Shown: positions 49,924-60,393 of the stretch, in pieces
Layout: every line of letters begins with the position of its first letter
Numbering within the stretch: the stretch's first letter is position 1
Source of the DNA: Gemmata palustris
Lineage (GTDB): Bacteria; Planctomycetota; Planctomycetia; Gemmatales; Gemmataceae
Direction of reading: 5' to 3'
NCBI RefSeq assembly: GCF_017939745.1
Contig: NZ_JAGKQQ010000001.1
Coordinates: forward strand, 5,580,001 to 5,644,000
DNA length: 64,000 nt
Made by a program: the position numbers and the translations under genes
Notes under the pieces: model-generated
Seen by the model: only the letters and a program-made list of their open reading frames with translations
The model's database searches: none
Told to the model about the DNA's origin: nothing

Positions 49924-50033
49924 TCGGGGACAGTGGCGAACGGAAAGCCCGAAAACAAAGGGCAGAAATATAAACGCCTGTGGCGTGTTGAACCCCTGAT
50001 GGGGCGCAGCGAGCTAAACTCTGGTCCCGTTAA

Positions 50034-50107
50034 AAGCAGAACGAGCCCCGTGAGGGCGATGGAGGCTTTCGAGCCGGTCCGTCGCCCCCACGGGACTCGT
50101 TCTGCTT
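50034..50107. repeat. Inverted repeat, 26-bp arms
   Basis: Arms 50034-50059 and 50082-50107 (AAGCAGAACGAGCCCCGTGA core) pair with two mismatches. It lies about 110 bp downstream of the gene at 49366-49923 and is likely its terminator; no gene is in the stretch to 50378. Confidence 0.75.
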
Positions 50108-50378: not shown

Positions 50379-50394
50379 TGGCACGGGTCGTGCT
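50379..50394 (+). promoter_or_regulatory. Sigma-54 (-24/-12) promoter, locus A
   Basis: TGGCACGGGTCGTGCT: -24 GG at 50380-50381 and -12 GC at 50392-50393, exactly 10 bases between, in the TGGCAC-N5-TTGC layout. A 7-bp inverted repeat (AAGCTAC 50278-50284, GTAGCTT 50309-50315) lies about 80 bp upstream and could be an activator site. Confidence 0.7.
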
Positions 50395-50403
50395 TTAACC
50401 TGA

Positions 50404-50543
50404 TTCGTCGAAACGGTTCTCCCCCAGAACCCCGACAGAGGCCGAGTGGTTCCCCCAAATACACCGCCGCCTCCGCATCCGGTTTGCCTCCATCCCCCCA
50501 AGTAAGCCGCCCGGTCCCCCAACCGGGCGGCTTGCTCGTTTTT
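50404..50543 (+). ncRNA. Candidate C-rich-loop small RNA, locus A
   Basis: About 140 nt from the predicted start (about 11 bases after the -12 element) to the U-tract. Four CCCCC(A) motifs: loop CCCCC in hairpin GGTTCT/AGAACC (50415-50431), CCCCCA at 50452-50457, CCCCCCA at 50494-50500 and the loop CCCCCA of the terminator (50504-50533). No open frame with a ribosome-binding site is present. It resembles, in design only, the actinobacterial 6C RNA with C-rich loops that pair with G-rich mRNA. It ends 115 bp before the next gene. Confidence 0.6.
50504..50543 (+). terminator. Intrinsic terminator of the locus A RNA
   Basis: Perfect 12-bp stem 50504-50515 with 50522-50533, loop CCCCCA (50516-50521), followed by GCTCGTTTTT. 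Confidence 0.85.
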
Positions 50544-59333: not shown

Positions 59334-59579
59334 GGGTCACCTCGGGAACGGGTAGGGACACGTCTTGAATTGTACCCCGGCCGTGTAGCCCGAACTCACA
59401 ATTGCGACACCCGACGGTGAACCGCTGTCGTATGTTCGGGACGACACAGACCGGATGTCGCGAATGAACTTCGACCGCCCCGCGACCAATGTATTCCGGC
59501 GTGCCGATCGTGATGAGGTCGGACGGAGTGTCGTGTGGAAGTTGATTAAGTGTGGGAGTTGATGAGCAGAAATGAAAGA

Positions 59580-59645
59580 ACCGGCCGCGATGTCCTGAAC
59601 TGTCGCCCATTCAGTTCAAAACTCGCGGCCGGTCTTCTTCTATCT
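59580..59645 (+). ncRNA. Hairpin element with a TCGCCCA loop
   Basis: Outer stem of 11 bp (59580-59590 with 59623-59633) and inner stem TGAACT 59596-59601 with AGTTCA 59613-59618, whose loop contains TCGCCCA (59603-59609). It is followed by a pyrimidine-rich CTTCTTCTATCTTT. No promoter of the -24/-12 type is seen upstream. The gap 59334-59825 has no gene. Confidence 0.4.
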
Positions 59646-59825
59646 TTACTCCGCGTTCCACAGTTGGTCAACTTCGGGCGGCGGAAAGTCGGACTCATTT
59701 TCCGCACGTGTCGGATTACACGACGACTCAAGCAGCGCCCCCAGTAGTGGTGCCGAACAAATTCGTCGATCACAAATCGTTTATTACTATTACTTTGCAC
59801 CAATCATCCGGAAATTTCCCGTTCG

Positions 59826-59841
59826 TGGTACGAGTCGTGCT
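59826..59841 (+). promoter_or_regulatory. Sigma-54 (-24/-12) promoter, locus B
   Basis: TGGTACGAGTCGTGCT: GG at 59827-59828 and GC at 59839-59840 with 10 bases between. Differs from the locus A promoter at two of 16 positions. TTTGC follows directly. Confidence 0.7.
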
Positions 59842-59851
59842 TTGCATCACC

Positions 59852-60022
59852 GCGTCGCCCAGGATCGCCCAAAAAGAATCGCCCAATTTCGCCCAAACTT
59901 GGTTCGCCCAGCCCGCCGGTAGTCGCCCACCATCGCCCTGGTTCGCCCAAAGTTCGCCCGCCCACGAGCGTCGCCCTCGCCCAGCGATAACCCGGCCGCA
60001 CGCCCACGGCCGGGTTTCATTT
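59852..60022 (+). ncRNA. Candidate C-rich-motif small RNA, locus B (TCGCCC array)
   Basis: About 170 nt. Eleven TCGCCC motifs, eight followed by A, start at 59855, 59865, 59879, 59889, 59904, 59923, 59933, 59943, 59954, 59971 and 59977, often 10 bases apart. Several are flanked by short complementary bases that could put CGCCC in a loop. It ends in a stem-loop with loop CACGCCCA. The start is about 12 bases past the -12 element. No open frame with a ribosome-binding site fits. Not a CRISPR: units are too short and unevenly spaced. Confidence 0.6.
59989..60022 (+). terminator. Stem-loop ending the TCGCCC array
   Basis: Perfect 10-bp stem 59989-59998 with 60007-60016, loop CACGCCCA, then TCATTT. 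The U-tract is only moderate, so read-through to the next stem-loop is possible. Confidence 0.65.
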
Positions 60023-60042
60023 GGACACCCACACTATCAATA

Positions 60043-60120
60043 TTCCGTTCCGGTTCGCCCTCGGAACGCTGCCCGCGTCGAGCGCCCGTTCGCCCACCGC
60101 TCGACGCGGGCAGTTTCGTT
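60043..60120 (+). ncRNA. Second structured unit with two TCGCCC loops
   Basis: Hairpin GTTCCG/CGGAAC (about 60046-60066) with TCGCCCT in the loop, then a 16-bp perfect stem (60069-60084 with 60098-60113) with a 13-base loop containing TCGCCCA (60090-60096), followed by TTTCGTTT. It may be the 3' part of the locus B RNA or its own unit. Confidence 0.5.
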
Positions 60121-60393
60121 TCCACACACAGATCAGGCCGCACAAACCGGATAATCGATTCGTTGAGCACAAAACGCGCCCTGTTTGTAAGCCCACCACG
60201 AACCGTTCCGGTGCAATTTCTTGCACTGCGACTTAAGCCCCCGTATAGTCGGTATCTCGAACCAACAAGTACGATTGCCGAAGTTATATCACCGACTCTC
60301 TACGATAATTCTGGCCGACCATAGTAGTTGATCCCTCACAACTGCGGTCGATCCAACTGCGCGATTGCGCGTTCTTGAATTGAAGGTAGTGCC

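Follow-up and report, generated by a model that had tools for sequence, protein, structure and literature searches.

The TCGCCC Array and Its Promoter

Within a 64,000-nucleotide stretch of the Gemmata palustris genome (hereafter, the window), a putative sigma-54-type promoter is followed by many copies of the hexamer TCGCCC, and the question that this locus raises is what these repeats could bind. The answer developed here is that the locus is probably a divergent pair of genes, one for a hairpin small RNA (sRNA) and the other for a sigma-54-controlled, multi-site RNA sponge.

The predicted -24/-12 promoter of the sponge-like RNA, TGGTACGAGTCGTGCT, is located on the + strand at 59826-59841, has the GG-N10-GC spacing and, as the initial annotation had reported, differs in 2 of 16 bases from the promoter of another locus in the window (locus A; TGGCACGGGTCGTGCT, at 50379). 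It is followed by an array (59855-59982, + strand) of eleven TCGCCC motifs, mostly TCGCCCA, that are complementary to the loop of the sRNA described below and start at 59855, 59865, 59879, 59889, 59904, 59923, 59933, 59943, 59954, 59971, and 59977. The claim of eleven motifs within 130 bases is borne out (128 bases by our count), and so is that of frequent 10-base spacing, with exactly 10 bases in 4 of the 10 spacings and a range of 6 to 19 for the remainder. The entire 295-base segment contains 13 TCGCCC on one strand, two of these in hairpin loops at 60055 and 60090, compared to approximately 0.2 expected from shuffled sequence (88.9 per 64 kb on both strands). The array folds worse than its shuffled versions (z +1.7; 191 of the 200 shuffles fold at least as well), suggesting that it is rather open.

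When the 9.2 Mb genome of this organism was searched for three TCGCCC separated by gaps of 3-11 bases, 19 matches were obtained, 18 of which (overlapping) fall within three loci of the array family, whereas the reversed control pattern yielded none. The array thus has relatives and is not the isolated low-complexity stretch that the initial annotation had named as the outcome that would speak against it; a low-complexity artefact can be ruled out. Neither does the array appear to encode a protein. Although a 148-aa open reading frame covers it in the window copy and a stop-free + frame of some kind is present in six of the seven long copies of the array, this is not always the same frame, and the spacing between the first motif and the second hairpin, taken modulo 3 in the seven copies, is 0, 1, 0, 2, 2, 1, and 1. 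The reading frame is not kept, so that coding is unlikely, as was originally claimed. Comparison with Rfam 15 detected no family above the gathering threshold in the window, so that a known Rfam family can be rejected; the only five matches at 59500-60200 are far below the gathering scores (best E 0.11). A search of plasmid records produced no match. The original reading of the locus as a non-coding RNA gene of a multi-copy family, with a sigma-54-type promoter and C-rich loops, is supported by these sequence comparisons.

A sigma-54 gene is present in the same genome, and all seven long copies have a -24/-12 match, with the first motif 29-30 bases downstream of the promoter start. Among 55 related loci, 30 show no such match at a loose threshold applied without a control, the count of 25 matches missing at least two cases, namely the long copies L046 and L017, in which the sRNA was misplaced by the script, and possibly including some low-scoring chance matches (G026:C1:8921814 was left out). 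Sigma-54 control, as predicted from these promoter matches, is not universal among the related loci. In L086, L023, and L024, inspection by eye suggests a putative promoter of the TTAACA...TACGAT/TATCAT type in place of -24/-12.

Hairpins Downstream of the Array

Three hairpins follow the array on the + strand. The first, H1 (59989-60016; fold z -3.8), has the loop CACGCCCA (59999-60006), which contains CGCCC without the full TCGCCC, so that the hexamer claimed for the loop of this closing hairpin is not there; for the two following loops (60055 and 60090) the claim stands. H2 (60046-60068), with the loop UUCGCCC, and H3 (60069-60113), with the loop CCCGUUCGCCCAC followed by the terminator-like TTTCGTTT, fold together with z -5.6 and make up the covariance model R1. 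A terminator scan placed one site at H3, compared to 1.3 expected in shuffles of the region.

The two-hairpin structure is consistently paired in the relatives (99.2% of the cells for H2+H3; 98.8% for H3, with two-sided changes in 7 of its 13 pairs). Of five covariation measures, four lie above every one of 500 shuffles, but the number of further pair types was matched or surpassed by 139 of them; all five exceed the slid versions, over which the structures of both H2+H3 and the sRNA are favored because they were drawn by hand from the same sequences. R1 matches 17 of the 95 genomes of the family, in 5 of 39 genera, including seven genomes that supplied sequences for the model and 10 new ones.

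A Divergent Small RNA Gene

Overlooked by the initial annotation was a divergent small RNA with a UGGGCGA loop that would explain the array. Its gene is located approximately 190 bp upstream of the array promoter, on the opposite strand. The predicted hairpin body (59580-59634, - strand; ~55-70 nt), recognized from its fold, covariation, and a family model, presents the apical loop AAUGGGCGA, the complement of TCGCCCATT and of + strand positions 59603-59611. The segment 59577-59633 folds with -37.5 kcal/mol (z -6.9), leaving the loop open. Upstream is a putative sigma-70-type promoter (59643-59671, - strand) of conserved position and spacing, with the -35 element TTGACC (59666-59671), a 17-base spacer and the -10 element TAAAGA (59643-59648). 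Downstream, the T-rich tail TCTTTCATTTCT (59568-59579, - strand) resembles a terminator, as judged from the T-runs of the relatives. In the window copy, the -10 element and the T-run (at most three T) are weak and the promoter is a weak match; a generic promoter and terminator scan of the window called neither.

The evidence for this gene comes from comparison. The inner stem covaries, with two-sided changes in 4 of 7 pairs among 12 sequences; in further pair types, 267 of 500 shuffles did as well or better. The corresponding covariance model, R2, matches 32 of the 95 family genomes, in 12 of 39 genera (seven of the 32 genomes supplied model sequences and 25 are new). In a first collection of 58 sRNA genes, the promoter was found in 44 (shuffled mean 1.83, largest 8) and the T-run in 52 versus 0. 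Since this collection had been chosen partly by stem pairing and a T-rich tail, the counts were redone on 80 R2 matches not chosen in this way, namely those with flanks among the 103 rows left after dropping 25 reverse-strand echoes. Of these matches, which are related to each other and so are not independent events, 58 have a sigma-70-type promoter (at least 8 of 12 positions) on the - side and one on the other strand, and 71 have at least four T in a row within 20 bases on the - side, compared to none on the + side. This asymmetry indicates that the sRNA is read on the - strand.

The region between the divergent genes (59688-59725) contains the elements GTCGGACT ... TGTCGGATTACACGACG, which might function as a shared operator or enhancer. 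TGTCGG, in either orientation, is found upstream of 33 of the 58 sRNA genes, and 42 of its 49 occurrences are 81-120 bases upstream of the loop G; such clustering of TGTCGG/CCGACA suggests a shared regulator.

A Family of sRNAs with a Common Loop

The TGGGCGA loop is found in all 65 sRNA genes that we collected, on three stem types and one unclassed stem. Together with the closing pair, it reads GAATGGGCGAC in 55 of these distinct genes, GATTGGGCGAC in seven, and one of three other forms in one gene each, the invariance being in part a result of selection because GGGCGAC was required for inclusion. The stems, in contrast, differ from gene to gene (most have A-T, C-G, or G-C as pair 5), with pairing percentages that lean upward because most genes were chosen for a paired inner stem. 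By pattern, 50 genes belong to class I, 11 to class II, and three to class III. The G. palustris genome itself contains about 12 sRNA genes: eight matches to the class I model, two of which are weaker and without H2+H3, one gene of class II, and three of class III. The exact pattern TCGCCCATTCA occurs 11 times in this genome, nine times in such hairpins (three, those of class III, assigned by eye) and twice in long open frames. This pattern is not rare (eight matches for the reversed control), and the weight of the result lies in the nine of 11 that are hairpins, not in the number of matches.

Class II (L091, L223-L229, L082, L083, and L085) has a characteristic neighborhood: the divergent strand encodes the DIHLG motif of a calcineurin-like phosphoesterase in 11 of 12 loci examined, the Pfam match to this family having been made for one neighbor only. 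The third stem type, with the same loop, was recognized by eye in L236 at 1500 (G000:C1:5820425), L233, and L234; in one case, it is found ~300 bases past another copy's H2+H3 unit.

Distribution and Arrangement of Related Loci

The search for further copies of the promoter with its array, proposed in the initial annotation, was productive. In the DNA search of the same genome with the window locus, two additional copies were found, L002 (75% identity) and L003/L004; a pair of long copies is also present in each of two other members of the genus, G009 and G010. The seven long copies contain 7 to 18 TCGCCC each in all, and in each of them a second hairpin, with the + strand loop TCGCCCA, starts ~245 bases upstream of the promoter. 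No genome other than these three yielded a long array, the array pattern itself having been searched in the G. palustris genome only, and the DNA search of the 95 family genomes matched 10. More distant relatives retain H2 and H3 with fewer motifs; the other related loci contain 0-7 TCGCCY. In L020 (1333-1580), two H2+H3 units are in tandem behind a single sigma-54-type promoter match.

The sRNA hairpin is linked to the H2+H3 unit well beyond the long copies. It is present 266-530 bp (median 369) upstream of 45 of the 56 H2+H3 matches, and the relative orientation of the two is identical in all 45 linked loci, which implies divergent transcription. The 11 matches without an sRNA within 700 bp upstream include at least one contig end and at least one second unit of a tandem; conversely, many sRNA genes have no recognized partner. 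A scan of genome contigs for one form of the sRNA yielded 17, which carry the names Gemmataceae, Gemmata, Fimbriiglobus, Planctomycetaceae, or Planctomycetota; a single isolate labeled only "Bacterium" accounts for three of the 17. At E<=1e-5, the sRNA was matched in 24 of 102 genomes of the order, all within the family, in a set with only about seven genomes outside it.

Locus A is a Separate RNA

The initial annotation had placed locus A (50379-50540) and the array locus in a single RNA family. This assignment is not supported: locus A was not listed in the search of the genome with the array locus, and it has a different upstream palindrome and different hairpins, so that a common family is rejected. 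Locus A has its own sigma-54-type promoter and CCCCCA repeats, some in hairpin loops, and it is matched in 18 of 19 genomes of the genus. CCCCCA recurs downstream of the promoter in the 13 aligned copies (the alignment excluded five matches in which the motif occurs fewer than three times), and the palindrome TTACCGGTAA is exact in nine of the 13. We consider locus A to be a separate conserved RNA; the promoter type and C-rich loops common to both loci are a resemblance that does not imply kinship. A divergent sRNA with a UGGGGG loop was sought at locus A and not found; the GGGGG there is paired in a - strand hairpin.

Some additional observations pertain to this region and this motif. At 50030-50106 on the - strand, TTTT follows a long hairpin of very high stability (-62 kcal/mol), with similar stretches (78%) at G000:C1:3022-3095 and 6560192-6560257. 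In the sample of gene start regions described below, 17 copies of CCCCCA were counted at -60 to -1 (32,940 bases; 5.2 per 10 kb) compared to 1.7 per 10 kb in gene bodies, an excess that possibly reflects only pyrimidine-rich leaders.

The Array RNA as a Putative Sponge

The two genes, their strands, promoters, structures, complementarity, and linkage are supported by sequence comparison; transcription, pairing of the two RNAs, sequestration, an activator, and mRNA targets are what we infer from them. All 13 TCGCCC sites are complementary to the sRNA loop AAUGGGCGA. The computed duplex between loop and site has -15.3 kcal/mol with 8 pairs, including the closing base of the sRNA, compared to -11.6 for the H1 loop and -9.7 for the H2 variant of distant relatives. 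Across the seven long copies, the mean probability of being unpaired is 0.57-0.67 for the motif bases versus 0.26-0.30 for other G/C bases. Because both the loop and the motif are near-invariant, there is no compensatory change that would prove the pairing. It also speaks against the sponge proposal that TCGCCCA, the sequence to be expected in mRNA targets of the sRNA, shows no clear enrichment near gene starts and yields no target set: in 549 start regions (-60 to -1; 32,940 bases), from crude gene calls on 864 kb of the same genome, it occurs seven times (2.1 per 10 kb vs. 1.1 in gene bodies), a small count. Further points against the proposal are the small number of genomes (three) in which long arrays were found, the H2+H3 matches without a nearby sRNA, the sRNA genes without a recognized partner, the relatives without a -24/-12 match, and the weak -10 element and T-run of the window copy.

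We hypothesize that, from the - strand, the sigma-70-type promoter yields a hairpin sRNA (~55-70 nt) with AAUGGGCGA exposed in its loop, and that, from the + strand, the sigma-54-type promoter yields a longer RNA in which numerous UCGCCCA sites are for the most part unpaired: the array contributes eleven, and the hairpin loops add two with the hexamer UCGCCC and one with CGCCCA. Sigma-54, together with an activator, would switch the longer RNA on. Each molecule could then capture multiple sRNA molecules, including siblings encoded elsewhere in the genome, by pairing their loops with its single-stranded sites or with its own loops, and would thereby withdraw them from their mRNA targets, acting as a multi-site sponge. 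The two features expected of such a system are found by comparison: a predicted transcript whose frame is not conserved and that carries complements of the sRNA seed, and an sRNA that appears to be a real gene given its promoter, T-run, covariation, and conservation. Hfq (PF17209) was detected in none of the 19 genus genomes (the control was positive in 5 of 14 named genomes), and ProQ was not found in the G. palustris genome, which would fit a multi-site design that operates without those chaperones.

Alternative Explanations

A serious rival, although one to which we assign a distinctly smaller probability, is that the array RNA is itself the effector, for example, a decoy for an RNA-binding protein like CrcZ or RsmZ, and that the small hairpin RNA, instead of being its cargo, represses it as an antisense RNA. 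Repetition of the motif in single strands and in hairpin loops is reminiscent of protein decoys, and a sigma-54 promoter is a feature of CrcZ. Furthermore, H2 is alike in many relatives, in a set partly chosen for H2, with distant copies showing GTCCCG/CGGGAC instead of GTTCCG/CGGAAC. Speaking against this rival are the sRNA genes that have no recognized partner and occur in more genomes than the H2+H3 unit (32 vs. 17 of 95), the recurrence of one kind of neighbor gene in 11 of 12 loci of one sRNA class, and the retention of the loop on different stems. As for a decoy, Hfq, the cargo of CrcZ, was not found in the 19 genus genomes, and there is no known protein partner.

Quite unlikely, in our assessment, is the reading of the initial annotation, under which the array RNA would act on mRNAs with TGGGCGA in the 5' region. 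The exposure of most of the motif is compatible with mRNA targeting, and C-rich sRNA loops of other bacteria pair with G-rich ribosome-binding sites, which also fits. In the 549 start regions sampled above, however, TGGGCGA shows no clear enrichment, occurring three times (0.91 per 10 kb vs. 2.25 inside genes), again a small count. Thus, TGGGCGA in 5' regions did not emerge as a target mark, and the loop of the divergent sRNA is a perfect, conserved partner that makes an mRNA unnecessary to explain the motif.

Less probable still is a multi-copy mobile or repetitive element devoid of host function. Such an element could account for the several dispersed copies per genome, including about a dozen sRNA genes in that of G. 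palustris, and one relative, the solitary sRNA copy L073, has by eye a transposase-like reading frame on its divergent side. Against this possibility, one sRNA class has a recurrent type of neighbor gene (11 of 12 loci), L023 and L024 are a copy common to two genomes with flanks that look alike by eye, both hairpin units covary, and Pfam matches, obtained for three of four nearby window proteins tested, include none to a transposase. The least probable option, namely that a regulator binds the TCGCCC repeats as DNA and that they are not an RNA feature, draws on the one-helical-turn distance in 4 of 10 spacings in the window but is at odds with the other spacings of 6 to 19, with the location of the array behind the promoter in each of the seven long copies, and with the presence of the motif in loops of hairpins with covarying stems.

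Significance and Comparison with Known Systems

The reading of the locus as an sRNA paired with its sponge can accordingly be set against known systems. A search of the literature on sRNAs in Gemmata, Gemmataceae, and Planctomycetes, and on sponge arrays, revealed nothing on an sRNA-array system among the open-licence matches listed; the pair looks undescribed, and sRNA regulation in Planctomycetota seems to be hardly studied. If the proposal is true, a tandem-site sponge adjoining the sRNA that it titrates would amount to a simple threshold device made of RNA only, the regulon could be approached through the many siblings that share one loop, and sRNA action without Hfq would become testable in a cultivable group. 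A more specific claim, which to us is evenly balanced between being right and wrong, is that this is a natural bacterial multi-site sponge with up to 18 sites, divergent from one of about a dozen sRNAs with the same loop on different stems and switched by sigma-54 where Hfq is not found, in which site copy number, not a chaperone, sets titration.

CrcZ and CrcY of Pseudomonas and Azotobacter, which have a sigma-54-type promoter, titrate Hfq through A-rich motifs. They resemble the array RNA in the repeated binding motifs, the promoter type (here predicted), and the titration of a regulator (here proposed), and differ from it in that their motifs are A-rich and bind Hfq, whereas here no Hfq is found and the motif fits an RNA loop. 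Of the features of a CrcZ-type decoy, the cargo Hfq was not found in the 19 genus genomes; a -24/-12 sequence and a sigma-54 gene are present, with 30 of 55 relatives lacking a promoter match in the loose count. MicroRNA sponges of eukaryotes, engineered or natural, carry many tandem seed-complement sites on one transcript, as the array RNA appears to do; here, in contrast, there is no microRNA machinery, the cargo would be a bacterial hairpin sRNA, and the sponge-like RNA has hairpins at its 3' end.

Among bacterial sponges, the closest parallels are those of sibling sRNAs. The Qrr sRNAs of Vibrio are sigma-54 dependent. QrrX shares with the proposed system both the action on several sibling sRNAs and a link to sigma-54, with the difference that here sigma-54 seems to drive the sponge and not the sRNAs, that the sites form a tandem array, and that the phylum is another one. 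QrrX is named as a sponge of the Qrr sRNAs in a report on CrfA of Caulobacter (PMC12559287). According to that report, CrfA is induced by carbon starvation and is a sponge of four sibling sRNAs, SisA-D, through one binding loop and largely via Hfq (PMC12559287); the Hfq on which a sponge of this type depends was found in 0 of 19 genus genomes here (PF17209). To the extent that CrfA is described there, the two systems are alike in that one non-coding RNA antagonizes (here, by prediction) a dispersed family of sibling sRNAs through a common seed, with an induced sponge and pairing of a loop with a single strand (PMC12559287). Within the same limits, they differ in the site, which in CrfA is one G/A-rich stem loop and in the array RNA is repeated up to 18 times, and in the arrangement, the siblings of CrfA being located at different places in the genome, whereas here the putative sponge is back to back with one of its own siblings (PMC12559287).
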